The notes under the pieces were generated by a model that did no database searches, was not told the DNA's origin, and was given only the letters and a program-made list of their open reading frames with translations. 64,000 nucleotides of DNA from Chrysophaeum taylorii (Eukaryota; Sar; Pelagophyceae; Pelagomonadales; Pelagomonadaceae). The stretch is taken from positions 82,658-146,657 of the forward strand of contig JAQMWT010000331.1 of the NCBI GenBank assembly GCA_029834535.1. The letters are read 5' to 3'. How positions within the stretch are numbered: position 1 is the first letter of the stretch; each line of letters begins with the position of its first letter. Positions 24,546-44,684 of this stretch are shown here, piece by piece. The position numbers and the translations under genes are program-made.

Positions 24546-26743
24546 GCTGCCTAAGAAGGGAGCGAGGCCGGGACGTCGAATGCTTTTCGTGCTGCCGTTG
24601 ACTTGCGTCAGCTCATGATCAGCTGGTCAATGACAGTGGCCGAATATTCGTCAAGATGATGCTTTGGCTTTTCTTGCCATGCCGCCGTTGGCGGACGTGC
24701 ATTGATATTCGATGGGTTATCATAACTTACGTTTGGATGCCGCTGCTCAGGGCGACGTCCGTTACTATGGTTAGTCCACTTGGAGCCCATAGTTTTCTTG
24801 CGCTTGCCTCTAGGAGTAAAAAACAGCAGGAGCTCTCTTTTGTAAGCAGATGGCTAGCGATTTGTCCACACGGATGTATAAGGACTTGGTCGCGTTTTGT
24901 CGACGATATTATGATGGGATCGGATGAACTCCATCGACATTACAAGTTTTGATTGAAGTGTTGTGCCATTTAGCACAGCGAGGATATAGTGGACGAACTT
25001 CGAAGTTCCCTCCACCTCATCGAGGTGAAATCGAGTTTTTGGGACATATTTCGACTCCGGAAGGCTTGAAGCCGAATCCCAAGACGTTAGAAGCGTTGCA
25101 GCAGATGCCGATTCCCGGTACGTTGCCCATACGTCCCCGAAGACCCATATTCGATCTTTCATTGGTATGAGCAACTATTGCCGCCGATATGTGATGAATT
25201 ATTCGAAGATTGTGGAGCCGCTTAGGCGATTGTGTCTTGAAGGCGTTAAGTTTGAGTGGACGCCTGAGTGCCAAAAAACATGGGACACGATCATCGAAGC
25301 TTTGGTGGATTCTCGTGGAGTTTATCATCCTGACTACGATCTTCCTTTTCAGATCCGCTCGGATGCTTCCAAGGATGGTCTGGGTGCGTATCTTTTTCAG
25401 CTCGTGTAAATCAAGGACGAAACCGGCAAGGTGACACGAGAGGAACGAGCACTTGAGTATTGGAGCCGAGCTGGCCGAAAGATATGCGGAACTATGAGCC
25501 TCGCCGGCTAGAGCTCCGGGCAGTTATTCTTTATCTTGAGCATTTCCGCTCTTATATTGAAGGTCACAAGACGATCCTTGAAAGAGATCATCGCAACTTG
25601 ACGTTTTTACGAAAGGCGAAGCACTCGTCTGGGCAGTTGGCTCGATGGGCGATGCGGCTCGCCAATTTTGATCCTGAATTGGGTTACAAGCCAGGGAAGT
25701 CGCCGGGAATGAGCATCCCTGACTGTCTCTCTCGCAATCCTATAGATCATGTCATCGAGACGGACGAGTTTGGTGAACCCTCGAACCACGCGTATCTAGT
25801 GTGCCAAGAACTCCTCGTCTGTGATGATGAAGGAGTACCTTTACCTGGGTGCCATGTCATTCTGTCGTTTGTTACGACTGAGTTGCCTGTGGAGGAAGAG
25901 GAGGAAGACCTCGATGATCCGATGCAATTGGTCACGTCTCATGCTACGAAACAACGTCAGAAGCAACGACTTCAGACCCAGCTTAGTATTTTCCGTGATG
26001 CCGATGATTACCAAGAGTACATCGACAAGATTCCGATAATTTGACTTTGAAGAGATAGCCAAAGAGCAGATCACTGATGCTACTTGCGAGGACATTTCGT
26101 TATCGCATGGCACAGGGCCATTCTCTTCGTCGGTACGGAGCCAATTATCGCTATCGAGTGGTGAAAGGAGTTCTCTACCGTGCCGCACCGACTTGCACGA
26201 TGATAGTCGCACCCCGAACTTTACGGACGCGTATCATCCGATTGTACATGACACACCTCTCAATGGTGGTCATATGGGTCGTCAAAGTACAGTGCAGTCG
26301 ATACTTGAACGTTTTTGGTGGCCTCATATGTCTAATGAGGTGGGTGCTTACATTGCTAGTTGCATAGTGTGCAAGAAAGCTGGTACGCCTGAACCAAAGA
26401 GAGCAGGTCTGCTTCAGCAACCGGTGTATGATGGTGATTGTGTCGTCCTTTGTATGGATTGTTTGGACCTTTTGCCAGCTGTTTTCCTAGATTGCTGTGT
26501 CCCGAGACTATCTCATCGTATTTCTTTTTTGACCCATTTTCCCATTTCTCGATTCTTGACGTACTACACCATAAGACTGCTGAGTCAATCCTCGAGTCTT
26601 TTGTCGCGTCAATCCTCGAGTCTTTTGTCGCGAATATATTACTCAAAGGTTATCTACCTCAGAGGATTCGTACCGACAATGGGAAAGAGTTCGTCAACAA
26701 GTTGATGGGAGAGTTTTGTCATCTTTTCGATGTTCGGTATAGT

Positions 26744-27058
26744 TGCAGAGCATTTAGCAAGCAGTGGTAAGTCACCTGGGAAACCATCCCGTCTCATCGT
26801 GAACGTCTGGAAGGTTAATTCGGGGAATGGAAGGTTATGTTCCCTATATCCTCAGAACCACGACAGGCGGCATCTAGAACTACACGAGAAAGGTTAAGTG
26901 TGTAGTGCTACATACCTCGGGACGCGCTAGACCATGATGATGAGCGTCGGCACAAATCAGAGGACTATTAGATTGTGTAGAAAGGGAGAAGAAAGGGCAA
27001 GGAAGAGATCACGTTCTCAACGGACGGATAAGGGTAAGAGGCAGCAGACTTCTCTGCA
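26744..27058 (-). repeat. Copia-1 3' LTR
   Basis: A 315-bp sequence with perfect 7-bp inverted ends TGCAGAG / CTCTGCA. The first ~265 bp (plus-strand order) are repeated at 39250-39520 next to the PBS. It cuts the gypsy-1 integrase ORF. Confidence 0.85.
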
Positions 27059-27188: not shown

Positions 27189-29898
27189 TCAAGAGTATAA
27201 CAGGGTGTCTTCGGGCTTGGACTTGGTGGAGCTGAGAGTCGACTTGGCGCTTTTGAACAGAGCATTACGAAACACAGGTACGACAGACGGTGTGTTAAAG
27301 CTATCTGAGGTGGTGGACGTTACTGGTTCGAGAGTATCGGTATCGTCTTCGTCAGCTTCTGCTGTCAGGCGGTGAACGCCAATAGTAGACTGGTGTGGTA
27401 CCATACGAAACGTGAGTGCAAGTAAAGCATTCAGTAGGGATGGCACTAGTGAGTCAAGTTGTAGGGTGTCCAGTTGGTTTTCCAAAAAGTTGGACTCAGC
27501 GAACGGATCCGAGAGGATAGAAGGGTCTTCCGATTCACATGCGAAGGGTGTGCTTTGAATACACGAGAGCAAATTATCACGCAGACGATGGAGGTGATCG
27601 TCCGGGGAGGAATGGTTGGCGGCATTACCCCTTACCCTGATCGCCGACCGCATGGTTGCGATGGAGGACGGTGCCTCATGAATCCTGAGCCTTGCGAGGG
27701 CATCCGCCTCCCGGCGTAGGTTGGCACCTATTCGCCTCTCGGGCGGGCCGGTTGGCAGCCGGACGTTCGCAGTGGGACGGGGTATGGCCGGGGGCGCAGA
27801 CGGAAGGTTATCGACGATTTGGTTGGTCAGTGCACATCGCGGTTCCCTCGTCGCATGGCGACAAGCTTGATGATCACTCTCCGCCGACCCACCTTTCGGC
27901 GCCCCTCGTCTACAGGCCCGTGATTCCGGACTGGCTTCTGTCGGTCCGGCTGGCTCCATGCTCGGGAGAGGTCTGGAAGTTAGTTAGTTAGTATATGGTC
28001 ATGAGTGTTAGCGTTAAGCGAGACACGACGGCGGCTGTGATCTACACGAACAGTGTTACAAGCAACACGTGCTGATTGGCTGTAGGAGGAAAGAGCCGGA
28101 TTGTGTAGGGAGGGGTAATGAAGCAATGGCTCCTGTATATCGTAAGGCAGATAGATTCTCAGCTTGCGCAGGGCTAAGTTTACCTTGCGAAATATAGGCG
28201 AAGACAGAGTATCTAGTGTCGCCTTTTCTCAGAGCCTGACAGCATCAGGCGAGGCAGAAGACAGCAGGTTGTTTGCGAGTAAAGACATCTTCTTCGTCAG
28301 CTTCTGTGATGAGGTGGAGAACACAAAGCAGCAGTTGTGGTACCATACGAGTGAGGTCTTCAGTACCATGCTTTGAAGTAGGTGGTTGATTTCGGTTTAG
28401 GAGTGCAAGGATCTTGATTCGGCGAAGTAAGGTGGGACCGACCATTACACCAAGAGTGGTGGTGAACGTCCGGGAGATGAATGAACGGGCGATCGTCCTG
28501 TTGGTTGGATGGAGAGCGCTACCGGCTTGAGGTGCGTCGGCCAGGCGTGCGCGAGGAAGAAGGTGCCCTGAGCATCACGGCTTGCAGTAGAGGGAAAGTC
28601 CGCGCTGTGAAATCGGTGACGGTTCTGAGCGGGTTGGGCAGGCGACGGACAGGCGATGTTGTGGAACTCGTTTGTTGCGACGCTTTGCAAGACTTTCCAG
28701 AAGTCGTGTGCGCAGTGGCAGTTTCAACGAGGCATGTCAACACCTTGTGCAAGTGGGTGATTTTCGTGTTGCAGGAAGTCTTGATGTTCTGCCGGAGTAT
28801 GTGGGAGAGATCCAGAAGTGATGGCGTTTGTCTGAGGATGATACGTAGTCGTCAAGGTGTTGTGCCCACGATTGGATAACAGTATGAATCACATGGTGGT
28901 ATTTGGTGGGCTTGAACATAGCCTGAGTTTTACGAGCTTGTGTTCGCTCGAGCGTTACAAGAAAGTTAAGATGCTCCAGGTGCATCTGAGTAATAAGCCG
29001 AAGATCCAGTGCCAATGGCAGTTGAGTGGTGGAATCTGTGGCTGCATCGGTTACTGATAAGACTAAATGAGCAAGTGACGAATATTGCGTTAGACTGCTA
29101 GTCAAGAGAGTATGTAGCTCCTTTGGCAAATGATACGTGCGTATGATGGTTGCGCGTATATGACCAGCTGAGCACCCATCACAGGAGGGTTGGAAGGAAG
29201 TAGCATTACGTGCACATACGTTAGGTTGTATGGGCGCCTGATCGGTGTTGTGACAAGCACAACAAATGTTAGTGGTGATAGTTGAGATGGGGATGTGACC
29301 ATTCTTCTTGTGGTCATCTGTGTTGAGGTGACTCAGCACTTCAGTGGGGAGTAAGAAATGTAGGCTGCCCCAAATCGTTGAGGCATTGCGTACAGTAGGA
29401 TGACAGGATGAAACGTTCACGTTTGGGGCCTCTGTAGCAGCCAATAGAAGTAATAGCAGGAGCAGCTTCCCAAAATGTAGTAATGGGTAGGCGCATGGAT
29501 ATGAATGTCGTTAGTTCCACAAACAGTAAAGAGTCAGCAGATTCATATATCGAGTTGAGTGCCGTAGAGATTTCCGCTCGCATAACAGAAGAGAGAAAGG
29601 GCGTAGCAGGAGTACGGAAGCTCTCAGAAGAGAGAATCCTCGTTCAATCAGGGCAAAATCCATGTTGAGGCCATCCTGGAGTGTTAGGGATTGTAGTAAA
29701 ACAGGTTCAGCTGGTGTCGGTGAGACAGTAGCAGCCTGGGAGGTAGTAGGAGTGACAGTGGTTATGGGTTGTCGCTTTTGAACAACATGGGAGAAGGCTC
29801 GGCCGTGGAGAGCGAGCGTGGAATTGTCCTTCGAACGACTGGAGATGCCACGGCCACGGCCACGGGAGTGCCAAGAAAAAGACATGAGCGACACTCAC
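27189..29898 (-). pseudogene. Copia-1 ORF3, unknown protein downstream of RNase H
   Basis: Between RT and the PPT lie frame pieces at 29894-29511, 29583-29341, 29444-28737 and, past a SINE, ~27600-27189. The first piece is basic and RG-rich (SRGRGRGISSRS). The second and third share order with copia-2 at 62340-62660: SLLFVELTTF...AAPAI then NICCACHNTDQAP, against TEFVDNVQYL...NAPAI then VTCNKCYNKVDAP, a CxxC motif. A ~130-bp acidic segment (RMVPH...TAEADEDD) appears twice, near 27340-27430 and 28270-28400. I do not recognise the family. An env-like or accessory role is possible; no membrane segment is obvious. Confidence 0.5.
27626..27993 (+). mobile_element. SINE-like retroposon, copy 3
   Basis: A 368-bp copy starting ACCCCTTACCCTGATCGCCG and ending AAGTTAGTTAGTTAG, inserted in copia-1 ORF3. 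It supplies the N-terminal half of a spurious 256-codon minus-strand ORF. Confidence 0.75.
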
Positions 29899-29989: not shown

Positions 29990-31768
29990 TCAATCCTGTA
30001 AAGGATTGTCGTCAGAGGCATGATGCATACCGAGTAGAGAACGAAAAGTGGAGAACTCAGCAGCAAGTGGCTTTGTAAAACCATCCGCCACGTTCAGCTT
30101 GCCGGGAACATGATGGACTCGTATTTTCTGTAGCGAGATGTACTCACGGATTTTAAACCATCTGGTCGACAGTGCCTTGGATCGAGAGGACCCATCTGGG
30201 TTATTAGAGGTGTGAACAGCGGCAGCATTGTCAGACAAGAGAGGTAGGCTTCTGATGAAGCGCATATCTTCAGCAATTGGGTTGTCATTGTCATCGAAGT
30301 CAACAGGGTCAGCGGTGTTCTCACCATTAGCATTGTTGACGTAGAAGGTGGGGTTGACGACAAAGGAGAGTTCCAACAGCAGCTTGCGTAGCCAAACAGC
30401 TTCATCAGCACAAATACTGAGGGCAATCAACTCAGCTTCGTGAGTTGAGCAGGAGACAATCGGTTGAAGTTTGCTTTTCCAACCAATAAGGCAGTTGAAA
30501 AGATAGAAGACAAACCCGGTGGTAGATTTCCTATCTTCCTGTGCTAAGGAAGGGGCATTGTCAGCGTCAACCATGGCAACTAAGGGGTCAAACTGTCCAG
30601 TAGATACATCCTGCGGTTGGTAGTCGACCACAGTGGATAGATCAATTCGATTAGCGGAGACAGTGCGAAGGTGAGCTTCAATGGCATTACCTTTAGGATG
30701 GAACCAGAGGCGAAGTGAGCGGTTTTCCGGCTTCTTGAGGTAGCGAAGCAAATGCTCTAGCATTTGGACGTGAACATACGTGGGTGCATGCATACCACGC
30801 GAACATCTGCCCAAGGCTTGCGAGAAGTCAGGTCTGCAGGCAACTTGCATGAACACCAGCTTGCCAAGGAGGGTGGCAAAGTGCGAATTGATGTACAACT
30901 CTGTTTCAGAGCTGGGAGTGCCATCTTTATACTTGAAGGACGATGACATAGGATATTTAAGCGGGGTCAGTTGCTGCAAGACTGGGTGATCAGCGAAGAG
31001 TTCATCCAGCTTGGCTTGCACATCCAGAGAAATGGAGCCGTCAGATGTGCGACACACACGCATGCCTAGGAGGGTATGGACAGGTTCAAACTGCTCTACA
31101 GCATACCGTTTGTGGAGGGCATCCTGTAATTCAGTACGAAGAGGGTCGTCATTGGACACAATAACAATGTCGTCTACAGACAGACTGCATACGACGAACT
31201 TAGCATGTGCGGATACTCGAGCATATAGGCAAGAGTCCGAATGCAGGCGTTTGTAGCCAAGGCTACGGAAGAAGCCGTCTATCTCTTTGTTCCAAAGGGA
31301 TGGTGATTGCCGAAGTCCATAAAGTGACTTCAGCAGTTTCGGTAGACGTCGGCCCTTGTACTTAGCGTCATCGGGGTCGATAAGCTTGATGCCGTCTGGT
31401 AACTGAACATAGACATTGGCATCGATGTCAGACTGAACGAAGGCGTTCGGGACGTCTGCATGGTAGACAGGCAATTGCTTGTATGCTGCAATAGCTAGTA
31501 GTACCCGGATTGCGGTCATGGTGGCCATGGGGCTGAAGGTACCAAAGAAATCGGCGCCAAGAGATGCTAGGAAGCCACGTAGTACGAGGCGAGCCTTGTG
31601 CTTAACGTATTTGCCTGCAGAGTCTGTTTTAATCTTCAGCACCATCTTGCTGTCAATAGGACGAGAGACACCGTCGGGTAAGGAAAGTTTGAAGCAGCCA
31701 AAGCGGATAATGTCGTGGAGTTCCTTGGCGATGGCCTTGAGGTAGGCGTGCCTGTTTTCAGGCGACAA
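29990..31768 (-). CDS. Copia-1 reverse transcriptase / RNase H
   Basis: A 592-codon open frame that extends further upstream without a firm start, since RT is released from a polyprotein. Catalytic motifs are DVPNAFVQ (Asp ~105) and SVDDIVI (Asp 199-200, replacing YVDD). The copia signatures ARLVLRGF, SLYGLRQSP and LLGMRVCR are present. RNase H follows with VDADNAPS (Asp ~401), DRKSTTGF, THEAELIAL and the end HVPGKLNVADGFTKPL. It copies element RNA to DNA and removes the RNA strand. All catalytic residues are present, unlike the frameshifted copia-2 homologue. After its TGA, the same frame reads a further TATSLN then a stop at ~29955. Confidence 0.95.
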   Translation of the reverse strand: MSPENRHAYLKAIAKELHDIIRFGCFKLSLPDGVSRPIDSKMVLKIKTDSAGKYVKHKARLVLRGFLASLGADFFGTFSPMATMTAIRVLLAIAAYKQLPVYHADVPNAFVQSDIDANVYVQLPDGIKLIDPDDAKYKGRRLPKLLKSLYGLRQSPSLWNKEIDGFFRSLGYKRLHSDSCLYARVSAHAKFVVCSLSVDDIVIVSNDDPLRTELQDALHKRYAVEQFEPVHTLLGMRVCRTSDGSISLDVQAKLDELFADHPVLQQLTPLKYPMSSSFKYKDGTPSSETELYINSHFATLLGKLVFMQVACRPDFSQALGRCSRGMHAPTYVHVQMLEHLLRYLKKPENRSLRLWFHPKGNAIEAHLRTVSANRIDLSTVVDYQPQDVSTGQFDPLVAMVDADNAPSLAQEDRKSTTGFVFYLFNCLIGWKSKLQPIVSCSTHEAELIALSICADEAVWLRKLLLELSFVVNPTFYVNNANGENTADPVDFDDNDNPIAEDMRFIRSLPLLSDNAAAVHTSNNPDGSSRSKALSTRWFKIREYISLQKIRVHHVPGKLNVADGFTKPLAAEFSTFRSLLGMHHASDDNPLQD

Positions 31769-31832
31769 ACCGTGGAGGCACTTAAGTTTATATTCGTCAA
31801 TGGAAACGTCCGCTTCTTGGACCTTATATTCG

Positions 31833-32612
31833 TCAGGACCAACAGTGGCTGGTGAAATTATAGTTTAGCGACGTTGCGGTCGAGGCAGTGTGCGCAACTT
31901 CGGGATAAGCGGAAACAGCGTCAGTAGGAGTAGTAGGGGCAGATTCCAGTTGGATATGGATAGTAGGGTCGGTACGTAAGACCTGGGTGATAAACTCTGT
32001 AGAGACCAGAAGGTATTCCTCCAAGTCAGCCAGAGATGCAGAAGTAGCGCCAAACTCGGATGAGTTGTGATCAATAAAGCTGGTCGGCGCCAGGTACGTA
32101 AGTGCATATTGTAAGGAAGAAGTGCCGAAGGCAGCAGCGTGTTCAGTGAACGCAGATAAAAGGGGCTGAGGAATAGGGCACGCAGGTGAACCATCAGCAG
32201 TTAAAAAGGTTGCAGCTGGGATGCTGGATGCGCACTTGGCGTGGGCGAAGTAACCATCGACGTGCGGGTAGCGGGCAAGTAAGTCAGTGCGCAACGGGAG
32301 AAGAAGACGAGCTAACAACGCATGTTCCCCCTCTGAGCAGATAGCAGACCAGAGGATACCACCACGGAGATGAAGGGCGGAGAGGGCGGGAGACTTGAAC
32401 GTAAGAAAGTGGTGGCGAAGATCCCAGCGGAAATCGGCGAGCTTGCCACCAGCGGCTTTGTAAGCACCAATAGTAGACGCTTGTAACCGGGCTCGGATAG
32501 TTTTCATAGAAGTGGCCTTGCGAGTGTTAGGCTGTTTGGAACCTGGGACAAGAATGAGGTCATCTTGTGCAAAAAGGTCTTTGTAAGAAGGAAGCAAGGG
32601 CGGCGGTGACAT
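31833..32612 (-). CDS. Copia-1 INT-RT linker domain, unknown function
   Basis: A 260-codon frame between integrase and RT. It starts LPSYKDLFAQDDLILV, passes GAYKAAGGKLADFRWDLRHH and LHLRGGILW, and ends TATSLNYNFTSHCWS. Copia-2 carries the same domain at 56905-57184 plus 59491-60060 (LPSYRSLFSQDVLCL; AYKQAGGTLADFKYDL; LHLAHGIHWTAI), so it is conserved within this lineage. It is not part of canonical copia Pol and I cannot assign a function. Confidence 0.6.
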   Translation of the reverse strand: MSPPPLLPSYKDLFAQDDLILVPGSKQPNTRKATSMKTIRARLQASTIGAYKAAGGKLADFRWDLRHHFLTFKSPALSALHLRGGILWSAICSEGEHALLARLLLPLRTDLLARYPHVDGYFAHAKCASSIPAATFLTADGSPACPIPQPLLSAFTEHAAAFGTSSLQYALTYLAPTSFIDHNSSEFGATSASLADLEEYLLVSTEFITQVLRTDPTIHIQLESAPTTPTDAVSAYPEVAHTASTATSLNYNFTSHCWS

Positions 32613-32684: not shown

Positions 32685-33922
32685 TCAAGGAGGTGGGGAG
32701 TGCCCCCTCTGAGGATGAGGAGTCCTTGTCCCCCTCTGAATGACATGGTCTTGGATAGTGGTGTGGGGTGTGAGCGAGAAAGGCGCGGAAGGAGCGTGTG
32801 GCGGAGGAGCTAGTTCAGGATCAGGAGTAGGATGCTGCAACATGTAGAGGAATTGCAGCTTGGACGAAACACGAATTTGTCCGTTTTCAGGGTTGAGGAC
32901 GACGTCAGCGAGATGGTCGACGCGTGGGGAGACGAGCGGGTTTTGCGCGTTGGCGCAACAGAGATACAGATATTTGCGGCGGCACGGTTCCCACTTGTGG
33001 TGTTCATGGGGCTCCAATAGGAGGTAACATTCAGCGCCAAAAATCTTGAGCATATCGTGTTGGGGAGTGCTGAGTTGGTTGTAGAGTAGCTGTTGCGGAC
33101 TCAGAATAGCATGATGAATGCGCTCGAGCGTGGCGTTCGGGAGAAGGTTGTAGCTTTGAACGGTGTGTATCACCGCCCATGGGAACATGATAGCGGGTTC
33201 CACGATCTTGGCGCCACGATAGTGAGCATTAAGGAGAGAACGAAGGCGAGTTGAGGAGGCGGAGGCGATGAAACCGATGGCAGACTCAACTTCAAAGTTA
33301 AAGTGGTGCATGTACGGCGGGAAGGCAATGAGTTGAATGCCCTTATCGACGCGGTACGGGGAGGTAATGTGCTGGCTAAAGTAGGGCTTGAATGCATCGG
33401 AGTAGAGGGTGCGCATGTGCACGTTGAGTTGTGTACGACAGAAGTCATACACAAAATCCAGAGCTTGAGTGAACTCCGTGGCGTTGGTGGTGCGTGTAAA
33501 GTACACCAAGAGAAATTTCGAAATGAGTTCCTTGAAGACGATGATATGTGTGAAGCCTCCCCATTCGGATGGGATGGTCACATAGCCGCCGTCGCACGCC
33601 CAGACTTCGCCGGCTTTGTGAGTTTGCTCAAAAGAAGGCTTGGTCGCATTGAAATGCTTGTGCGGGTGGCGCTTGTTGTGTGCGATGCAGTCGGTGCATA
33701 AGTCGCGATATGGTATGTCAGAAGCAGAGAATCCAGGGCGAGCAAGTACGTTGGGGGCCTTGGCAGCGACGTTGTCGGGGCAGTGATGCACCCGGTGAAA
33801 GCGATTGGCACGTTCTTTGGCATTGAGATATTCGGTGGATCCGTGTGCGAGGACTTACGAGGAATTGGATGAGCGGGAATGTGCCGTTTGCGCCGAACAT
33901 CGAACTTGAGTTCGGTGTCCAA
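32685..33922 (-). pseudogene. Copia-1 integrase
   Basis: The zinc-binding region (FHRVHHCPDN ... DLCTDCIAHNK) is followed by the catalytic core with Asp in WACDGGYVT, Asp in LYSDAFKPYFS and Glu in HHFNFEVESAIG, the retroviral-type D,D-35-E triad. Downstream comes the FGAECYLLLEPHEHHKW region typical of copia INT, then a Pro-rich tail. The 32685-33791 frame is intact; the zinc arm upstream needs a frame change near 33800. It joins element cDNA to host DNA. Confidence 0.85.
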
Positions 33923-33988: not shown

Positions 33989-35961
33989 TCACGAGTAGCG
34001 AGAGTATCTTCGTAGGACGAAGATATATAGTTTAACGACATTTCGGTCAAGCAGTTGCTGGAAATAGACATCATAAAAGATTGTGCCAAAGACAAGGTAT
34101 CTGTGCTGCACGTGGTGGAGGTCAACGGTCATGAAATTGGATACATAGGATTTCTTCGTCACGGCAGCAGTATGTTGGAAGGTAGGGTCCAACATAAGGG
34201 ATTTAATATCGGCGACGATGAGCGAAAGGTGCTTGTACAGAGTGCTGTACGTACCGGCAGGCAGAGCATTGCTGAGCATGTCACAGCAAAGGTCATGGCG
34301 TAGAGACAATAGGCAAGATTCCTGTTGTTTGGTGTGGTTGTTAGCACGAATCAACTCCGGTCGAGTGGGGTAACGTAATTTCCCGTTGCGAGGGTCGAGT
34401 AAAATCATATTGGCATACCCTCGGACGGTTGGCAATGGAGCAAGCACTGAGTGGATTTTAGAGCCGAGCTTGCGGTCACTTCCACGAAGGTACACTATAT
34501 AGCGACTATGAGATAGGTGATGATCTTCCAGGGCAAAAAGAGAATCCTTGTAATCGAAAGAGTTGTCGGTGGCCTTGTAGGTAAGGCAGCCAGGCATCAC
34601 GAGAGAGCATCTGGACAAGAGTTTTAGTATGGCGGTGCCATAGGTGGTAGCGGAGCCAACTTGGGGAAGGGCTTGGACTATCCACACGTAACCTATAAAC
34701 GGCTCCAGATATATGGACCTGTCCCGGTCGCGGGGGATGTCGGAAGCAGTGAACGTATGCGTGCTTCCAAAGGCGTTGATGGGGGTCTTTTGGTTGGTGG
34801 TGGCGTTCTCTATGGTGAGGTTGCCGTCGGAATGGTGGCCACCAGTTAAGAAGTAGGAGTTGTGTGATGTTGATGAGGTTGTAAATAATAACCTGTGTGA
34901 CGGTTGGTTAGTTTCCAAAACGGTTATGTAATAGGACACAGGAGTGGGTGAGTTAGCAAGTAAGCTTGCGAACACGTTATAGAGGATTGTAAAAACCTTG
35001 ACGTGTATAGGATGTGTTGCATTGGGTAATGGCTCCATAGAGGAGCGTTTAAAGCACAACTGATGATAAGTACACTCGGATTGAACAGAGTGAGTACGTT
35101 GCTCGTGAGCCTGTTGTGAGTGAAGGCGAAGCAGTAACATATTGAGGGATTCGAGGTCTGCCATAGTAAGCTGAGCAGAACCTGTGCGAGAGTAAGGTGC
35201 AAACGTTTTAGGAACAGGGATATATGCAGGATCGGGGAACACCCGGATCCAGTCTTTGGATACGTGGTTAGGTAGCCAAAGGCGCTCGGGGATAGCGTGT
35301 AGATCATCCACGATCTTTAGGAGGGGGCATGGATGGAGGATGGGCCACGATGATAGTTTAATTGGCCCAGTAGAATACCTGCGTGCAATGCATACCCATC
35401 TTTCTCTAGATTGGTAGTCGCCACCGAGGTAGGTCGGGAACCTATCAACAACATCGACACAGTAATCAAGTGTAGTATGGATAAGGTTGGCCACTGTGAT
35501 GTGGTCTTGATGACAGTACTTATGCGGAGGCGTCATCTCAGCCAGTAGTACCAAGGGCTGGAGTAGCTTGATGACAGACAGCATGCTGTCGAAAAGAGAA
35601 TCGTCCAGCAGGCTGTGTAAGTCTTCCGTCTTTGCTGTTCTAGTAAACTCCTGTTTGTGCAGGGAGGAGTGATCTCAATTATATCACAATAGAATGTGCG
35701 CCTTTCCTCTGGTGAGATTAGGTGAAGATGGTTAATAAAGGCGGGGAGAGATTCAAATAATAGTACAGTAGGAAAACGGTGGCGTAACATACGAACAAGC
35801 GTATCATCAGACTCAACAACAACTTTTACATTGATATTTAAGCCTAAGTCATTAGTGGCTTGAGACAGGAACGCCGGAGTTGACAAACCAGAACAAAGTA
35901 ACATGACAGAGGGTTTGCGGAGATTGGACTCTTGTGAGAGAAACACTGGGCGTGAGAGTAG
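33989..35961 (-). pseudogene. Copia-1 cytosine-5 DNA methyltransferase domain
   Basis: C5-MTase motifs appear in order. Motif I: SVMLLCSGLSTPAFL (~35900). Motif II: VVVESDDTLVRMLRHRFP. Motif IV: DIIEITPPCTNRS, with the Pro-Cys nucleophile (~35665). Motif VI: LVLLAEMTPP, with the Glu. Motif VIII: GDYQSRERWVCIARRYS. Then a ~300-residue target-recognition region, motif IX: LLDPRNGKLRYPTRPEL, and motif X: SNALPAGTYSTLYKHL (~34270). It follows protease in the same frame after one UGA and precedes integrase. One frameshift between motifs IV and VI (~35600) breaks this copy. The presumed role is methylation of cytosine in DNA, perhaps element cDNA or host chromatin; this is inferred. Copia-2 has the colinear homologue. 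Confidence 0.85.
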
Positions 35962-38202
35962 TCAAGTTAATGGCTGCGTATTTTGCTGAACAAATTTGTT
36001 CTGTTTCCGAAGATTGAGAACCAAAGGGCGAATCCACGGGCGATCTGGTAAAACTCTTTGGAGTAGGTAGTTGTAGTATGCCAGTAGATCCCTGTTTTCA
36101 TGGTATCGCTTGAGGGGAAATGCGAGAGAGCGAAGTTCCAGCCGCTTGTCGCGCGCGATGTTGTAAGTGAGACAAGGGAGAGCAGGTAAATTAGCTGCTA
36201 CATAATGTATGGGTATACGTACATCTTTGTCTATGCGGCTCGTGACAGCGCTGAGCTTTGGCTCAGCTCGATCATTGAACACAGTGGTCAGGTTCGTCTG
36301 GTTCCACTCGAGCATGCTCAGGATAGCGAGATGTCGGTCATGCACTGGCTGAAGACATAAAGCGAAGTCGATCTTAACATAGCCAACTTGTGGATGATCT
36401 GGTAGGGGAATAACGATGTTGCGTGTTAACATCATGTGTGATGCCCGTTGTTGTCCTGTTGCCGTCTGAATAACAATCGGCGCGTATTTGGAGTCCAATG
36501 GAATTATATGATTGGGTATTGCGAAATCGTAGGTGGACATCAATGAGATGGTAGCACAAGAGTCAAAATATAGAAAAGAGCAATGTGGAGGGACACTGTT
36601 TACCTTCATGTAGTTGGTGAGGAAGGCGTTTTCCGAATGTGGGCAAGTAGTGGAGAGGCTGGCTGTGAAGAAGTTCTTCAGCAATAACAGATTCGTTGGA
36701 ATAATGATCGGTTGAACAGGTGGTGATGGTTCGTCAGCCTCATCAGCCATGCCGTGCTTTTCATCAAATGACGATAGCGAAGTATGATCGGCATCCCTTT
36801 TGGTTTCGGCTTGTGATGGTAGGTTGAGGGCAGATTGGACCTGTGAAGATAGCGAGGACAATAATGCTGGTGGTAAAGCCGAGATGGCGGAAGCGGTAAA
36901 GAGGTTAGGCACAGTATTGGAAGGATTACCCTGTGTGTTTGTAGTAGGAGGAGTTGTTGTTGGGGTGGGAGCAGTAACAACAGTATGGTGTTGTGGCTCC
37001 ACGTAGTTTAACGACTTTTCGGTCGAGGATAGATGAACGTCTACATCATAAATGATGTCTTCTGCAAACATGAGCTGTTCGTTTAGACGAAGTAAACTAC
37101 TGTTGTCCTCAGTAGATGTCGTTGACAGAATGTCAGCTGATTGTAATAGAGTCTCAAATAACTTGTTGATATTCTGTTGTAGCTGAGCCGTGGTATCATT
37201 ATCTGTCACATGCTTCGTGAGTTCGCTACACTGTTCTCGCAGGGTGTTTAAGGTGTGGTTTGTTCGATCTAATAATTTCATGTTAGACCGAGAGGACCTG
37301 TCAAAAGTGCGGGGGTAAATTGGACGGTCATGGGACTGTCCGGCAGTTTTCTTGGTGACGTAAGAATCACCAGGACGATAATACGATAAATCGCTGCGAG
37401 AGAAAGGCTGGCGAGCATCATTAGAGTTACGCAAGCGTCTAGCATTAAACGTGGAAGATGTACCAGGTTGGGACGAAGTGATGAAGGCGAGTGTGTTAGC
37501 AGTTTGAGTCAGACTTTTGTCTGATGAGTCCAAAGTGTTTGTAAGTAGTAACTTTGGCTTTGGTTGAGATGATAAACCTTCGACATAGGGTTGCCAAGAA
37601 ACAGGGCGTTCTAAGCGTCTTTTGTTCGACCCATTTGATACTACATTGTAAAGGTCTAATGCGTATTCTAAAATGTAGCTAGGGTTGGTAGGGTGACACA
37701 ATCGTTCAGCTTCTGGCACAGGCCGAGATGAAGATCGGGTTTCGTACATATAACACCAATCTACCCAACCACGATCGTAACGGTTGTTGCTGGTATTATC
37801 GGCATAATGCCGATGTATCTCTTCATAGATTTTTCTACAAAGAGTGCCAAAGTCGAATTGAAGGTCAGTCTCTTCCTGGTTAAGTTGGTAAGAGATTTGC
37901 CTAAATGCTAGGACAGCTTCGATAAATACATGGACATACCAGTTAGGATTATAAACAACAGAGTTAAATTGCTGTTTCAAATAGGACACATCAGTAGTCG
38001 TAACAGACTCGTAGTGACTAAAGGCGATGAGCATAATAGCTCGAGCCTTGTTGGGTAAATAACTTTTGTTGTATACCTCATTGATGGCGGGCCAGGCCGC
38101 AAGTGCCGGTTTTCCAACACTTTCAAGATTGAAGTAAGTATGCAAGAATGTAGCGTACGTGTTCTGATAAGTGTGCCAGTCAGCGGCAGTTAACGAAAAC
38201 AT
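35962..38202 (-). CDS. Copia-1 gag C-terminal part and protease
   Basis: A 746-codon frame. Residues 1-390 are Gag (MFSLTAADWHTYQNTYATF..., then a basic, Tyr/Ser-rich stretch with SYYRPGDSY and DRSSRSNMKLLDR). A TEKSLNY motif at ~residue 397 may mark the gag/PR border. The retropepsin active site is FDSCATISLMS (~residue 547): Asp is present but the usual DSG/DTG Gly is Cys, as in copia-2 (DTCAS). A protease C-terminal region and an LELRSLAFPL helix follow. The frame ends in TGA followed by CTA, after which it stays open into the methyltransferase. Confidence 0.85.
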   Translation of the reverse strand: MFSLTAADWHTYQNTYATFLHTYFNLESVGKPALAAWPAINEVYNKSYLPNKARAIMLIAFSHYESVTTTDVSYLKQQFNSVVYNPNWYVHVFIEAVLAFRQISYQLNQEETDLQFDFGTLCRKIYEEIHRHYADNTSNNRYDRGWVDWCYMYETRSSSRPVPEAERLCHPTNPSYILEYALDLYNVVSNGSNKRRLERPVSWQPYVEGLSSQPKPKLLLTNTLDSSDKSLTQTANTLAFITSSQPGTSSTFNARRLRNSNDARQPFSRSDLSYYRPGDSYVTKKTAGQSHDRPIYPRTFDRSSRSNMKLLDRTNHTLNTLREQCSELTKHVTDNDTTAQLQQNINKLFETLLQSADILSTTSTEDNSSLLRLNEQLMFAEDIIYDVDVHLSSTEKSLNYVEPQHHTVVTAPTPTTTPPTTNTQGNPSNTVPNLFTASAISALPPALLSSLSSQVQSALNLPSQAETKRDADHTSLSSFDEKHGMADEADEPSPPVQPIIIPTNLLLLKNFFTASLSTTCPHSENAFLTNYMKVNSVPPHCSFLYFDSCATISLMSTYDFAIPNHIIPLDSKYAPIVIQTATGQQRASHMMLTRNIVIPLPDHPQVGYVKIDFALCLQPVHDRHLAILSMLEWNQTNLTTVFNDRAEPKLSAVTSRIDKDVRIPIHYVAANLPALPCLTYNIARDKRLELRSLAFPLKRYHENRDLLAYYNYLLQRVLPDRPWIRPLVLNLRKQNKFVQQNTQPLT

Positions 38203-38825
38203 GGTAACGGGGCACGAACACGGGTGTCGAAAGCTAGTGCCTTCGGGTGCGCGCGATTTAAGATTCGTTCCTCTTCTAAGAAACGAGCATTGATTTCAGG
38301 ACGTAATGCCTTGACTTCATAGTCGTAACAGACAGTAGCTAGCTGAGCTACTTCTGCATCAGGTAAGTGGGGGAAAGCTTCGTTGGTGAAATGCCATTCC
38401 TGATACTCAGGGGGCAATTCATCAACAGCTAAACGGAGATCAGCAGCCCTATCGGTCTTCCATTCCAGGAAAACGCGATCGAGAATTTGATTCCGGAGGA
38501 TCTCGTAGTCCTTGCATGACCGAGTATATGCTTCGTACGAGTCGTACTCGAGGAAAGCATCGGCATGACTGGACCGTAACAATTGCTTAATATGCTTGAT
38601 TTGCAAGGATACCTTGCAGGTCTGAAGCTGAAATCGATTTCCATCGTTAAGAAACTCAACTACAGGAGCTTCGAGCTTCAATATATCCGCACCTGTGATC
38701 GCCTTGGGTGCGGCTCGTGCTGCGTGTTCTGCCATAGCAGTTGACGGGGAACCTGTGGGTTCAGTCACGCAGTTGACACTGTCTAGACATTCTAAGGGGG
38801 TCTGTCTATCGGTGTCTATGTACAC
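38190..38825 (-). CDS. Copia-1 gag N-terminal part
   Basis: A 211-codon frame, with a possible second start at 38735. It reads ITGADILKLEAPVVEFL ... YDSYEAYTRSCKDYEILRNQ ... EWHFTNEAFPHLPDAE ... LRPEINARFLEEE and continues the same domain as copia-2 gag. It overlaps the next frame by 13 bp. Copia-2 is uninterrupted at this point, so the shift near 38195-38205 is more likely a mutation than programmed frameshifting. Confidence 0.75.
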   Translation of the reverse strand: MYIDTDRQTPLECLDSVNCVTEPTGSPSTAMAEHAARAAPKAITGADILKLEAPVVEFLNDGNRFQLQTCKVSLQIKHIKQLLRSSHADAFLEYDSYEAYTRSCKDYEILRNQILDRVFLEWKTDRAADLRLAVDELPPEYQEWHFTNEAFPHLPDAEVAQLATVCYDYEVKALRPEINARFLEEERILNRAHPKALAFDTRVRAPLPCFR

Positions 38826-39234: not shown

Positions 39235-39249
39235 CCTGGGCCCATAACC
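39235..39249 (-). promoter_or_regulatory. Copia-1 primer-binding site for internal initiator tRNA-Met
   Basis: The plus strand reads CCTGGGCCCATAACC directly against the LTR end. CTGGGCCCATAACC is the anticodon-arm sequence of eukaryotic initiator tRNA-Met (CAU anticodon), so the element strand is complementary to an internal part of that tRNA. This is the half-tRNA priming known for Drosophila copia. Confidence 0.9.
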
Positions 39250-39520
39250 TGCAGAGCATTTAGCAAGCAGTGGTAAGTCACCTGGGAAACCATCCCGTCT
39301 CATCATGAACGTCTGGAAGTATTTAATTCGGGGAATGAATTGTATGTTCCCTATATCCTCAGAACACGACAGGCGGCATCTAGAACTACACGAGAAAGGT
39401 AAAGTGTATAGTGCTACATACCTCGGGACGCGCTAGACCATGATGATGAGCGTAGGCACAAATCAGAGGACTATTTGATATTTCGATAGAAGAGGAAGAA
39501 AGAAGGGTAAGGAAGAGAAC
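39250..39520 (-). repeat. Copia-1 5' LTR, outer end missing
   Basis: TGCAGAGCATTTAGC onwards matches the 3' LTR for ~265 bp with scattered substitutions and small indels. The terminal ~50 bp with the expected CTCTGCA is not found; homology stops near GATCACGG, and no matching target-site duplication is visible. Confidence 0.75.
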
Positions 39521-39632
39521 GATCACGGATTTCATTTCAAAAATTAAATTTATTGGGAGTCCATAAGACACGGTCTTCATAGGAGTTTCGAACAACAACA
39601 AGATTCACCTACTGAATGGAAGCTTCTGCCAG
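39521..39632. other. Unassigned flank between copia-1 and gypsy-2
   Basis: About 110 bp, AT-rich at its left end, with no gene. It ends with GCCAG, the left copy of the gypsy-2 target-site duplication, so it is contiguous with 50113 onwards once gypsy-2 is removed. Confidence 0.6.
39628..39632 (+). repeat. Gypsy-2 target-site duplication, left copy
   Basis: GCCAG, repeated at 50108-50112 after the 3' LTR. One extra T precedes the TGTGGCG start on the left. Five bases is usual for gypsy integrases. Confidence 0.75.
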
Positions 39633-39633
39633 T

Positions 39634-39958
39634 TGTGGCGGCAACTCCCGCCTCCTAAGGCTTACCCCCCTTCTAGGGCCCCCTTATCAGGGGCACCCTA
39701 CTCCGTTCCGATGATGTCAGTTTTTCTATGACATCATCTTTCTTCGTGACGCACGTCACCCTGATTTCCTATTTTCGATATATCCTTGATCATAAAGCAA
39801 CAGCCGATCCTCAAGTTGAGAGGACCAGGCGCAGGAGTTGTTTGTGGTCGCGTGGCGGGAGAACGGCCATCCTCGTCCAGTGATCCCGCACGGACGCGAT
39901 CGGCGAGCCAGGATTCGAAGGCACGCCAGGTAGCCCCTAAAATTCTCCTTACGCCACA
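39634..39958 (+). repeat. Gypsy-2 5' LTR
   Basis: 325 bp with inverted ends TGTGGCG / CGCCACA. It carries two perfect inverted repeats (39710-39738 and 39746-39759) and a TATA-like GATATATCC near 39777. Confidence 0.93.
39710..39759 (+). promoter_or_regulatory. Paired palindromes with TGAC(G/A) half-sites in the LTR
   Basis: GATGATGTCA (39710-39719) pairs with TGACATCATC (39729-39738). GTGACG-CA-CGTCAC spans 39746-39759. TGACG/TGACA half-sites resemble CREB/ATF-type bZIP sites. They lie upstream of the TATA-like motif and recur in the 3' LTR at 49848-49877 and 49888-49901. A cis-regulatory role is inferred. Confidence 0.5.
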
Positions 39959-39960
39959 GG

Positions 39961-39983
39961 TGGTGGAGGAATACGAGATTCGA
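39961..39983 (+). promoter_or_regulatory. Gypsy-2 primer-binding site
   Basis: TGGTGGAGGAATACGAGATT begins two bases after the LTR. Its complement ends TCCTCCACCA and includes a TTCGAATC-like T-loop, as in a tRNA 3' arm. The exact tRNA is not identified. Confidence 0.6.
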
Positions 39984-40423
39984 GCGACTATATCGGTCGC
40001 AACGAACTAGTGCATCTTGCATTCTCTACACGGTCCGGACAAGCCGTGCGCGCCCTGATCAAGCGCGCCGACAAGGAATTCCAGAAGGACCATTGCCGTG
40101 GGAAAGTTCCCCGGCCGGATACGTTAGTCGTCGGAAGTGACGACGCGCGATTTGGTGCTAACCGACGCGCAACCCGGGTACCGCTGCCGCAGGCGAGCGG
40201 AGTGAGATCGCAACTCACGGATAAGGCATTGTTTGCCGGGCAGAGACGAGTTCTGCCGCCCACCGTACGGATAGATTTGTCGGTGGAAGACGCACGCAAC
40301 GACGATATTACGCGTGTCGTGGACGATTAGAAGTTCCAGAGCCGAAGGAGCACGAGAACGACGACGACTCAACCATTTTGGACCCGCTCTGATCTCGGCC
40401 GACTAGAACGAGCCAGAGCCGAT
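39984..40423 (+). other. Gypsy-2 5' leader
   Basis: About 440 bp before the gag ATG. A 106-codon ORF at 40010-40330 is not conserved in the gypsy-1 leader, so I do not call it a gene. Confidence 0.5.
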
Positions 40424-41968
40424 ATGGAAGACGATGATGCTGCCGTCGAGCAGCTACGATATGAAGAACCGCCAAGCCGTCAGGATGAGACGAACGAGCG
40501 GAATGACGATGATGATAATGATGACGATGAAGAAGAGCACGATACAGAAGTTGACGAGGAAGAAGAGCTAGACTACAACGACGGCAAGCCCACGGAGAGA
40601 CCGACGGGAGGACGATCGACAGCTCCGTCAACGCGTGCAGTACCCCCGGACCCAACGATAATGAAAGAGTTCTATGAGGCTCTCTTGCGGGAATTACGCG
40701 TAGAGAACGAACGCGCGCAAGAACAACTTTTAAAACAATTAGGGGAAGACGACGAACGAAAAGAACGGCTACAACGGAAGGAGAAAGAAGAACTAATAGA
40801 GCAACTGCGTCGGGCCAACGCTCGAGCAGACGCCTTCCAAGAGCAAGTAAGCTCGTTGACCCGTGAAAGAGACGAGTTGCGTACGCCGAGTCGATCAAGG
40901 CGAGCGAGCAGCCCGGAGTCCCGAGCTGAGGAAGAGCCGCCGACTACACGATCACGCGCGAAAGCTAGGAAGCCGCGCTATGAAGACGATGATGAAGAAG
41001 AAAAGGAGGAGACGCGTGGCGCCGGAAAGATCGACACCCAGGAGTTCTTGATGGGTTTTACGGATCGACTCGCGAGCGCGTTAGCTAAACACGATCGCAA
41101 CAAGGAGCGGCGATCAACCTCTGGATTAAAAACCGAAACTTTTAAACTGGTTCTCGATGGACGCGATCAGGACCAGTTCGATTTAGATGCGGGCGCGGTG
41201 ATGAGTACGTTAGCCGAAGACCATTTCAGCTTGGAGAAACTCCGATATCTGCTTCCCGCGACCCTGCGCGACACCGTCGCACCGATTTTTCGATAACACT
41301 TAAAGAAGTATGAAGACCTGTGTAAAGACCTAGATCACCCAGCGTCTTTCTATTTACGTCGGGATATCGACGATGAGGAGTACGGTTGCGTGGTACGACG
41401 GATGTGACGATTGAACGAGAAGTATTGCCTCAAGATTTTGAAATATTTCCGAGAGAGCTGTCCGCTGCCGGTGACGGCAGAGGAATCATTACGAAAGTTA
41501 CAAGGCACGACCCAAGCGACCGTTCCGAAACGCTCTGGAGAACGTCACGTGCATACGTATTGCATTAAATTTCAGCAAGAAGCCATGGCATACTGTTCCG
41601 TGGCCAACCGAGATCTCAACGACGTGGAGATCATCTCTTACTTAATACGTGGACTGGAGTCCAGCGAATTGAAATCCCGCGTGCGAACGATGCGCAGCGG
41701 ACACCCGACGACGTACAAGACGTTTACGTCTACGTTGTCGCTGATTACGCGGCTCGAAAACGACTTCGCAACAGCCATGGCGGAGAAGAACAGCCGAAAC
41801 TCGATGAACCCCTCGAGCGGGAAGCCGCAGAAGCCGCCGCCTGGACGCGGAGGACGAGCTCTCGTCTCGGGAACGAAAGACAAAACAACGAAATATGAAG
41901 CCTTGCGCCTCGAAGAGAATCCGGAAGGTGGTTCGAGAGGACGTGCAAGGACTGTGGGTTTTTCTTAG
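40424..41968 (+). pseudogene. Gypsy-2 gag, with two in-frame stops
   Basis: The ATG at 40424 opens an acidic leader and a long coiled coil (LLRELRVENERAQEQLLKQL), then a capsid-like core: FKLVLDGRDQDQFDLDAG, LRYLLPATLRDTVAPIF, VRTMRSGHPTTYKTFTS. TAA at 41294 replaces the Glu codon found in gypsy-1, and a TGA near 41404 replaces an Arg codon; the frame is otherwise open to 41968. A one-base shift near 41930 moves the zinc-finger region into the next frame. Gag forms the particle; this copy would need complementation. Confidence 0.85.
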
Positions 41969-43098
41969 CGACCCACGACAAGGATGAACACGGGAACCGC
42001 GTCATTTGCAACCGCGAGCCCGACGACTATTATGTAGCGATGTGCAAATACATCAAAGACGGCAGAAAGCCCATTTCGCGAGGACGATGGGAGAGCCGAC
42101 AAAGGAAAGATAATCATTCGCGTGACGACGGCAGTTCTAATGCCACCCTCGGTTCGAGCGCTGCTCACGATATTCAGAGCAGACTCAATGATATGGGCAC
42201 GCAGCTAACCACGGTTATGGATACCGTGCAGCACTTAACAGATGGACACGGCCGATCGTCTTCGACACGAACGGGCCGTCGAGATAGCCGGAGCCCCCGA
42301 CGCCACGACAAGAGCCGTAGCAGCTCGTGCCAGCGCCGACGGAAAGATAGCAGGAGCTCTAGCAGACATTCACGCCGCCGCCGGCGACGAAGATCTCGCG
42401 ATCGAGATTCGGACGATGGTCGTTACCGAGAAGACTCGGGACAGTCGTCTGCAACGTTCGCATTTACGACCCCTTGCGGTCAACAGTTACCATTAGGAGT
42501 GACGGTGTACCCGAACACGGACACCCGCACCGACGACGCAGCCGACGCCCTTGCCGCGGCCGCATTCGAAGATCTTGCTCGCCCACCGATGGACGAGCCA
42601 CCCAACGACGTGCTGACCAATCGTCGGTCTTTGGCACAGATTTATGAGCAGATGTCGAGCGATGAGCTCGAAGATTCGAGCGAGGAACTTGAAGCTCCAC
42701 GATACTGGGAAGGCGATTCAGATTCGGAAGATGAAGAAGCTACACTTTGTGAACCAGTGTCCGCGTTAACGTTATTTGACGAGTCGTCCACGGACGACCC
42801 ACCGTTTATTTTTGATGAGGAAGCCCTCGATGCCATCGGCTTATCTTTGGACCCTCCAGAGACGACCGCTGGCGACCGAACTGGCTGTGAGCCAGACATG
42901 AATTTCTGCAGTGATAGCTCGTGCGCGCATTCGACTGACGAGACGATGACCAGCGCGAGTATTGCAGACGACGATTTTACGACAGAGTTGACGTCGGGGA
43001 CGACGCCATCTTTTCCTGCGGACCCCCCCCCGAAACGGTTTCGATTACTACGGATCGAGACACGGATACGCCGCCGGAAGAAAAGGATAGATTTATGA
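41930..43098 (+). CDS. Gypsy-2 gag C-terminal part: zinc finger, RS-rich tail, acidic linker
   Basis: It starts with the finger CKDC-x6-H-x4-H-x5-C (~41950-42010; ATHDKDEHGNRVICN), then MCKYIKDGRKPISR, an Arg/Ser-rich nucleic-acid-binding segment (RRDSRSPRRHDKSRSSSC) and a long acidic linker. The frame closes with TGA at 43096-43098, overlapping the next ATG as ATGA. A C9 run at ~43024-43032 lies just before; in gypsy-1 the following PPETV reads in the other frame, so slippage here would fuse this part to protease. Confidence 0.7.
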
Positions 43099-44684
43099 AG
43101 AAGATTAGCAGCGTTCTCAAGTGTGACGAAGACGAGCCGACGTGGAACCTGCAGGATTGGTGGACGAAAGCTCGGAATTTCTTGCTAAAGAAGCCACCAG
43201 AACAACCGCGCAGCTGCAGACTCAAAGCCGCAGCTGACACGGAACCGATCGCCGATGCTGATGAGGATCAGCAGGCGACGAATGAATTCACAGATGCATT
43301 ATGGAACGACGAAATGAATGATTTATGGGAGGGGTTGTTTGCTTCCAAGGATTACGAAGACCAGGATCCCCTACCAGCGTTTATTCCCTCGGAGATTGTC
43401 TTGGAGGAAGAGCGGAAGCCGCCAGATAAAGAGGCTGCCGCGAGCATTATGGCGAAGACGCCAACAACAGATAATACGAAAGCTCAAGCCGCGGTATCGA
43501 TGCCCAACCCCGGAGATGAGCGATTCAGAGCCCGATGTGCTCACACTTCGTTGACGCCGCGAGATGGCAAGACGATCGAAGATGATTTGATTACCCTCAG
43601 TTGTTTAGATACGGGTACTCTAACGTTTATAGCCTGTCACATCTACAGGAATCGTGACGGACCGAAATTCTCGACGACCATCGGTGTCGATGGAATGGCA
43701 GATGTTTCTTATATTTGCCGAGAAATGGTCAAAAAGTTGACCAAAGATCAGTTGATTTTCGATGAAGGCGAACTTCCGATTAAGCGCAAGCTGTACGGAT
43801 CAGGGTTGAATACGACGACGATCCATCGTTGGATCGCCCTTCGGGTCGCTTTCGCCGACGACTTCGCTGCCCCCATTGTCGCTATTGTAGCCGATACGAA
43901 TTATCTGTTCCTGTTGGGAGGGCGCGATATACGAGTTTTAGGAGCCATCGTGGATTTTCCCCATGATCGGATCTGTTTTTGTCGAACCCAAGTCGTCTAC
44001 GGGCGCAAGAAGATTAAAGTTAAGGATGAACGAGTCGATGCACCAATCGTGACCTTTCGGTCTATTTACGATCGAAATCCGATAACCGTACCGATTTACA
44101 ATCATCAACACGATGCCTTTCGGCAGAGTCTCGACCTGGTCAAGACTCGAGTTTACGCTCGTTTGAGCACGATTAAAGATCTCCGAAGCCCGCCGCCGGA
44201 ACGTAAGGTAGCCTTGGCTACGCGGGGACATGCTACGACCAAATTCTCCCCAGCTCCGGGAGAAGACGCGCGAGAAGTAATCGCTTATGCTGCGCGCACG
44301 CTTCAAATCGAGCCCGGTCGAACGTACAATCTACCGGTTATTTTGTCGAAACCTATGGAAAGAGGACAGGTTTTCGTCGCTACGTTTGCTGAGAACGAGC
44401 AGTTGGGAGTTGTCGAAGGAATGTGTTCTTCTTGCGAAGAGCGCGACCGGTCCGCTGCTCGGGTGGCGGTTACTGCCACGGAAGAAGTGCCGACGGTCGT
44501 CACTCAAGGCGAAGTCCTTGCGATTGGTGATATCGTTAGGTACGAAGATGAGTTGAACGTCTCTACGATCAACGAACTTACGAAAGAATGTGAAGAAGGA
44601 TACGACAAGGGGAACCTTTCTTTCACCGTTTCTGTCGCTAGTCACTTGACGCGATGCGACGAATCTCCCCGCCGATGCTGCTGA
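43095..44684 (+). CDS. Gypsy-2 protease region
   Basis: A 529-codon frame whose N-terminal third is acidic linker. A retropepsin-like fold is suggested by FSTTIGVDGMADVSYICREM, flexible strands, and LLGGRDIRVLGAIVDFPHDR, the usual ILGxDfL/hydrophobic ending. The active-site triplet would be DGM instead of DSG/DTG; Asp is kept but the rest is unusual, so activity is uncertain. The C-terminal ~170 residues (from KVALATRGHATTKFSP) are unassigned. The frame overlaps the methyltransferase ATG by 31 bp in a -1 register. Confidence 0.65.
   Translation: MKKISSVLKCDEDEPTWNLQDWWTKARNFLLKKPPEQPRSCRLKAAADTEPIADADEDQQATNEFTDALWNDEMNDLWEGLFASKDYEDQDPLPAFIPSEIVLEEERKPPDKEAAASIMAKTPTTDNTKAQAAVSMPNPGDERFRARCAHTSLTPRDGKTIEDDLITLSCLDTGTLTFIACHIYRNRDGPKFSTTIGVDGMADVSYICREMVKKLTKDQLIFDEGELPIKRKLYGSGLNTTTIHRWIALRVAFADDFAAPIVAIVADTNYLFLLGGRDIRVLGAIVDFPHDRICFCRTQVVYGRKKIKVKDERVDAPIVTFRSIYDRNPITVPIYNHQHDAFRQSLDLVKTRVYARLSTIKDLRSPPPERKVALATRGHATTKFSPAPGEDAREVIAYAARTLQIEPGRTYNLPVILSKPMERGQVFVATFAENEQLGVVEGMCSSCEERDRSAARVAVTATEEVPTVVTQGEVLAIGDIVRYEDELNVSTINELTKECEEGYDKGNLSFTVSVASHLTRCDESPRRCC

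Follow-up and report, generated by a model that had tools for sequence, protein, structure and literature searches.

A diverged C5-methyltransferase-like domain in the Pol region of a Ty1/copia-type retrotransposon from Chrysophaeum taylorii

Retrotransposons that carry DNA methyltransferases (DNMTs) have been reported among LINE, DIRS and Gypsy elements (PMC5890265). When assayed in yeast, the SymbioDIRS domains methylated CG de novo, and for the KnitGypsy and SymbioLINE domains no methylation signal was obtained, a result termed inconclusive (PMC5890265). The same 2018 report says that Copia elements of Symbiodinium are without a DNMT, and it leaves the role of these enzymes in the retrotransposon life cycle as a suggestion (PMC5890265). 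According to a statement of 2025, some DNMT3 members occur in LTR Copia and DIRS elements, for which a 2018 report on streptophytes and dinoflagellates is credited (PMC12344493).

The element analyzed here lies in a stretch of 64,000 nucleotides from the pelagophyte Chrysophaeum taylorii (assembly GCA_029834535.1, contig JAQMWT010000331.1, positions 82,658 to 146,657), referred to as the window. We found that the window copy can largely be understood as an old, decayed LTR retrotransposon of the Ty1/copia type with a domain resembling cytosine-5 methyltransferases (C5-MTases) between protease and integrase.

Organization of the element and its distribution in the genome

The segment 33989-35961 is encoded on the minus strand in two reading frames (35961-35533 and 35674-33989 in the ORF list), and the parts of the surrounding element are given in Table 1. 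The original prediction had named it a Ty1/copia element, and this assignment was confirmed by a Pfam match of the reverse transcriptase to RVT_2 (PF07727, E = 2.8e-42), by the position of the integrase upstream of the reverse transcriptase, and by LTRs at both ends. The two LTRs lie 12.5 kb apart and are identical in 247 of 271 aligned columns (91%); no target site duplication was seen by eye at their ends. The candidate primer binding site presumably resembles an internal (anticodon-arm) stretch of the initiator tRNA-Met, as in copia. The integrase matches downstream of the MTase domain were weak in the window (rve, 1.6e-3; SH3_retrovirus, 5.4e-5; both below the curated Pfam cut-offs); the integrase also precedes the reverse transcriptase in the single open frame of locus L069, which matched SH3_retrovirus at 2.9e-11, above the cut-off. 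The protease frame of the window had no Pfam match and was assigned from its motif, in which the active-site Asp is retained in 41 of 43 copies of the window family. Frame changes in the MTase and the later Pol parts have broken the window copy; several other genomic copies are open.

Table 1. Parts of the retrotransposon, in positions of the window
Part	Positions	Strand	Basis and remarks
5' LTR, aligned part	39250..39518	-	91% identity to 26744-27008; true outer end perhaps slightly further out
3' LTR, aligned part	26744..27008	-	Alignment to 39250-39518
Candidate primer binding site	39235..39249	-	Sequence reading
Gag, N-terminal part	38190..38825	-	Open frame
Gag, C-terminal part, and protease with FDSCAT site	35965..38295	-	Open frame; protease by motif
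UGA stop at protease/MTase boundary, next codon CUA	35962..35964	-	Sequence and copies
C5-MTase part 1 with motif I (35878-35895), motif II and Pro-Cys of motif IV (35659-35670)	35620..35961	-	BLASTP to P0004/P0005; near-invariant residues
C5-MTase part 2, in the other frame, with motif VI (35534-35542), motif VIII (35402-35428) and motif IX-like segment	35101..35644 (lower end approximate)	-	BLASTP; family B profile match
Conserved C-terminal stretch, ~330 residues	34120..35100 (bounds approximate)	-	dN/dS; identity to family C
Integrase, zinc-binding HHCC part and core	32685..33854	-	Weak rve and SH3_retrovirus matches; HHCC by eye
Reverse transcriptase and RNase H	29990..31864	-	PF07727 RVT_2, 2.8e-42; RNase H by eye

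Three further features were noted around these parts. An open frame at 28737-29510 (minus strand) follows the reverse transcriptase in the position of a third gene, and look-alikes were recognized by eye at L038:2111-2641 and L070:4937-6046; the latter sits upstream of an MTase remnant, so that L070 is probably a chimera or a nested insertion. Direct repeats at 24940-25773 and 46915-47747, which are 80-84% identical and ~22 kb apart, bracket the whole element region and may belong to another mobile-element pair. On the plus strand, the copia element is adjoined by long open frames (40331-44684) that look gag-like and protease-like by eye.

A survey of the genome assembly (70.8 Mb in 697 contigs) revealed three copia families with the domain. 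One contig is of plastid origin and encodes psaA and psaB; its photosystem I proteins are most similar to a group of entries that are presumably from cryptophytes, diatoms and red algae. In family A, to which the window copy belongs, the first MTase piece was found at at least 150 places (150 of 916 candidates scored), the second at at least 83 places (78 of 1590 candidates scored) and the N-terminal part of Gag at at least 150 places, with open Gag frames of ~950-963 amino acids at several copies and 1224 as the longest among the matches listed. MTase, integrase and the core of the reverse transcriptase share a single open frame of 1691 amino acids in one family A copy (C42). The second family, B, is represented by the proteins P0002 and P0003, which match the C5-MTase family PF00145 at 1.1e-9 and 4.2e-9. 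Two family B loci were selected through their MTase match: in L006 a DGGAS protease-like motif stands in the same frame as the domain, and in L037 the domain is followed by a reverse transcriptase (RVT_2, 1.2e-40). The four loci of the third family, C, were taken from 150 reverse transcriptase matches listed, by their rank, a profile range unlike that of family A and long frames, regardless of any MTase. All four carry the MTase domain upstream of the integrase, although only its later part was seen in L070, and the integrase counterpart of this family matched SH3_retrovirus at 2.9e-11.

Besides these families, two loci are stand-alone host C5-MTase genes (L001, C634, 4.1e-19; L002, C621, 7.9e-18), the first of which we take to be Dnmt2-like. 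Among 55 further PF00145 places, all six loci inspected (L003-L008) contained the family B domain; a downstream reverse transcriptase was checked at one.

Relationship of the domain to C5-methyltransferases

The original prediction had proposed a C5-MTase between protease and integrase and an HMM comparison of the 33989-35961 translation with the Pfam DNA_methylase family as its check. The slot was confirmed; the HMM search found no C5-MTase match for the window pieces at E ≤ 1. An open family A copy likewise had none at E ≤ 10, and with NCBIfam and PHROG nothing significant was found for family A (PHROG, 0.057), the NCBIfam scan being of the family A copy. The family C domain had no PF00145 match, and its best PHROG match was at 0.38.

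With the direct Pfam test failing, it is a set of intermediates that connects families A and C to the C5-MTases. One of them, P0004, is an MMETSP transcript protein; its alignment with the family A copy spans 56% of the latter at 42% identity, and among phage families it matches one of DNA methyltransferases at 3e-8. Another, P0005, is 58% identical to P0004; it is encoded on a contig of 9613 bases (source, ENA). In BLASTP searches, part 1 of the window MTase matched P0004 at 2.4e-19 and P0005 at 2.6e-13, and part 2 at 2.5e-58 and 5.0e-38, respectively. Against the curated PF00145 cut-off of 22 bits, P0005 scored 23.0 and the two family B proteins 36.7 and 38.6, and P0004 stayed below it with 20.2. 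A plain BLASTP comparison of families A and B was not significant (E = 0.061). In contrast, a profile built from families A and C, P0004 and P0005 matched the family B profile over 206 columns spanning motifs I to VIII, with a probability of 94 and a pairwise E-value of 1.3e-7. The homology proposed originally thus stands through these intermediates, and these comparisons support the view that the domain is a strongly diverged C5-MTase derivative fixed between protease and integrase of a Ty1/copia element.

Searches further afield added little. A protein search with family B found no relative, and a tblastn search of phages with P0005 gave no match; six records were obtained in a tblastn search of plasmids with P0002 (best E = 7e-3), two of which are annotated dcm. 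The 84 pattern matches to viral contigs were rejected as relatives, as none was confirmed. At the sequence level, P0002 had no match in the PDB, and P0004 matched the C5-MTase 3g7u at E = 0.49, ranked below 16 designed-ankyrin matches that are likely due to chance. The profile A2 found one C5-MTase in the PDB at 0.84, and the only match of profile A5, a proteasome chain at 0.33, was discarded. In a tree of 12 rows, built without Dnmt3 sequences, the copia rows and P0004/P0005 fall on one side with a support of 88/89. A single capture of the MTase by copia is possible from this grouping, but long branches meet there.

The motifs of family A follow one another in the order I (CSGLST), II (E), IV (TPPC), VI (AEM) and VIII (QSRER), and in an alignment they share columns with those of E. 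coli Dcm, a Caulobacter plasmid dcm and the two stand-alone host MTases. Depending on the residue, their key positions are conserved in between 46 of 47 and 49 of 49 family A copies. The original prediction of motifs I, II, IV, VI, VIII and X in canonical order therefore holds for I to VIII, which are ordered and near-invariant in 49 copies; no clear motif X was identified in the alignment with these four enzymes. Families A and C keep Pro-Cys in motif IV, Glu in motif VI and QxRxR in motif VIII. They are altered next to these residues, with PCT for PCQ in motif IV and AEM or MEM for ENV in motif VI. Family B has the Cys and the Glu, but of motif VIII it retains a single Arg and lacks the Gln, which is present in 46 of 47 family A copies.

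The predicted recognition region of ~300 residues is putative: a motif IX-like segment lies ~80 residues beyond motif VIII, and behind it comes a conserved stretch of ~330 residues. This stretch (34120-35100) has no Pfam match, is 44% identical between families A and C, and shows a dN/dS of 0.23 over its larger part. Lying between the MTase core and the integrase on the minus strand, it could represent a Pol component of its own that has not been described before.

The UGA junction and the possible role of the domain

A UGA codon lies in register between protease and MTase in 48 of 49 family A copies, the exception being due to a deletion, and it is followed by CUA in 45 of the 49. A search pattern in which the stop codon was left unspecified matched at 147 places, and the 100 matches listed comprised 99 with TGA and one with TTA. 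TGA is also present at the same junction in all three family C loci that cover it, where the context is UGA CGC instead of UGA CUA and the hundred residues before the UGA are only 31% identical to those of family A. Taken alone, the constancy of the UGA in family A carries little weight, given that 356 of 467 four-fold sites show the same degree of invariance.

Selection was analyzed with 49 distinct family A copies, obtained from 58 fetched loci of which 9 were merged as the same place. The dN/dS values were pooled over copy pairs, with codons containing gaps or stops excluded. A value of 0.20 was obtained for MTase motifs I to VIII (1176 pairs) and 0.19 for the C-terminal end of Gag with the protease (393 codons before the UGA), compared to 0.33 and 0.23 in the parts that follow motifs I to VIII, 0.48 in the linker (208 pairs) and 0.18 in the integrase (171 pairs). 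The MTase domain is under purifying selection comparable to that on protease and integrase. Between families A and C, identity is 56% for MTase motifs I to VIII, 53% for the integrase, 64% for the reverse transcriptase, 42% for the protease and 26% for the gag part, so that among the compared parts the reverse transcriptase alone exceeds the MTase core.

Since purifying selection acts past the UGA in copies that carry it, the frame beyond is probably translated, and the MTase is probably made by UGA readthrough. This selection, together with the presence of the UGA in family C despite the diverged flank, would give stronger support for a role of the UGA than its invariance in family A. It is also conceivable, if rather doubtful, that the UGA is not read through and that MTase, integrase and reverse transcriptase are produced via internal initiation, splicing or a second promoter, which would be compatible with each of the alternatives discussed below. 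In Tca2, the junction alone gave no readthrough in Saccharomyces cerevisiae and had promoter activity, according to the passages on these assays (PMC2194720), and the RNA following the UGA of our element showed no unusual fold (z of -0.46 to 0.06 in five sequences, two of them identical). Against such routes, the frames on either side of the UGA are in register in both families A and C, and UGA CUA has been described as a weak termination context (PMC4207609).

The domain order, the homology through intermediates, the catalytic residues, the purifying selection and the UGA in two families were all observed. The explanation that we favor, and hold to be probable on balance, is that of a diverged C5-MTase in copia Pol which is made by readthrough, packaged and acts on nucleic acid. 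In working copies, most ribosomes would stop at the UGA and yield Gag-protease, and a minority would pass it and yield Gag-protease-MTase-integrase-reverse transcriptase. The MTase would then be packaged alongside reverse transcriptase and integrase, be freed from the polyprotein by the protease, and act on nucleic acid via its catalytic Cys-Glu pair. The likeliest target would be the element's own cDNA or a fresh insertion.

The original prediction had suggested that such an enzyme could methylate the cDNA or the copies of the element and thereby hide them. Traces of methylation were sought in the base composition. The C-to-T changes at third positions among copies amounted to 0.0255 for CpG, 0.0272 for CHH and 0.0239 for CHG, and a CpG-specific decay among family A copies was not seen. 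The window copy has a CpG observed/expected ratio of 0.91, compared to 0.96 to 1.40 in other stretches of the window (1.40 in 39540-46000), and a TpG/CpA ratio of 1.19, compared to 0.88 to 1.12. The picture is mixed: the lack of a CpG-specific C-to-T excess argues against CpG methylation that persists in the copies, and the CpG depletion of the window copy is weakly in favor of some past methylation, or may reflect composition. These data are silent on transient, non-CpG or RNA methylation.

The missing CpG-specific decay would also be expected if the MTase fold had been kept but methylation had been lost, leaving Pol with a domain that binds nucleic acid or serves a structural purpose. The divergence of motifs IV and VI in families A and C fits such a change, and a non-catalytic use is likewise compatible with a dN/dS of ~0.2. 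We nevertheless consider it unlikely, as residues specific for catalysis are kept in family A (the Cys of motif IV and the Glu of motif VI in all 48 copies each, the motif VIII arginines in all 48 and all 47 copies, respectively), and the Cys and the Glu are identical across the aligned rows of families A, B and C, P0004 and P0005.

C5-MTase folds include RNA enzymes such as Dnmt2, and an active enzyme might methylate RNA, either that of the element or its primer tRNA, rather than DNA. Copies free of CpG-specific decay and a primer site that presumably points to initiator tRNA would be in line with an RNA substrate. The best family matches of the relatives are DNA MTases, though this is not decisive for the substrate, and the mild shortage of CpG in the window copy, together with its surplus of TpG/CpA, also speaks against it; we regard an RNA substrate as improbable. 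Least credible is that an ordinary copia polyprotein resembles C5-MTases through short motifs that arose by chance, which would account for the window, the open family A copy and family C having no direct Pfam match, but not for P0005 exceeding the cut-off while being 33-42% identical to the window pieces, for the PF00145 match of family B at 1e-9 in the same slot, or for the E-value of the profile comparison.

Returning to a catalytically active MTase, a target other than genomic CpG is suggested because the motifs are altered and CpG-specific decay is lacking among the copies. As a tentative wider proposal, which we consider possible rather than probable, a copia lineage spread across several algal groups may have taken up a non-Dnmt3 C5-MTase once, held it in the slot between protease and integrase, dosed it by UGA readthrough, and directed it to transient cDNA, a non-CpG site or RNA.

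Comparison with known systems

Among the closest counterparts is KnitGypsy-Dnmt3 of Klebsormidium nitens, likewise an LTR retrotransposon whose Pol includes a C5-MTase under purifying selection (Ka/Ks<0.2); however, it is a Gypsy element with a recognizable Dnmt3, and the passages on it describe no UGA junction, whereas the element studied here belongs to Copia (PMC5890265). SymbioDIRS-Dnmt3 and SymbioLINE-Dnmt of Symbiodinium share with our element the high copy number, the DNMT domain and the purifying selection but are DIRS and LINE elements, and SymbioLINE shows a clear CG depletion, compared to the mild one of a single copy and the absence of CpG-specific decay among copies here (PMC5890265). 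The Copia DNMT mentioned in 2025 belongs to the same superfamily as our element; it is called a DNMT3, and the passage mentioning it gives neither position nor sequence (PMC12344493). Tca2 of Candida albicans also has a UGA before its pol frame, but there the UGA separates gag and pol and the passages on it mention no MTase, whereas here it follows the motif-assigned protease (PMC2194720). Dcm-type and phage C5-MTases (PF00145, TIGR00675, phrog_116) show motifs I to VIII in the same order; the domain described here differs from them in the altered motifs IV and VI of families A and C, in the fusion to Pol and in the extra C-terminal stretch.

In our searches of open-licence PMC papers, we met neither a non-Dnmt3 C5-MTase reported from the slot between the protease and the integrase of a Copia element nor a UGA junction reported from a Copia element bearing an MTase. 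Because a plain Pfam scan misses the window family, retroelements with a DNMT may have been undercounted. The element offers a case in which a stop codon seems to couple the dose of a methylation-type enzyme to Pol, and with the at least 150 family A places, the two further families and the two outside relatives, the function of such enzymes in the retrotransposon life cycle could be tested directly. The capture of DNMTs by retrotransposons is already known from the systems above; the Copia arrangement of protease, MTase and integrase with a UGA junction looks new.
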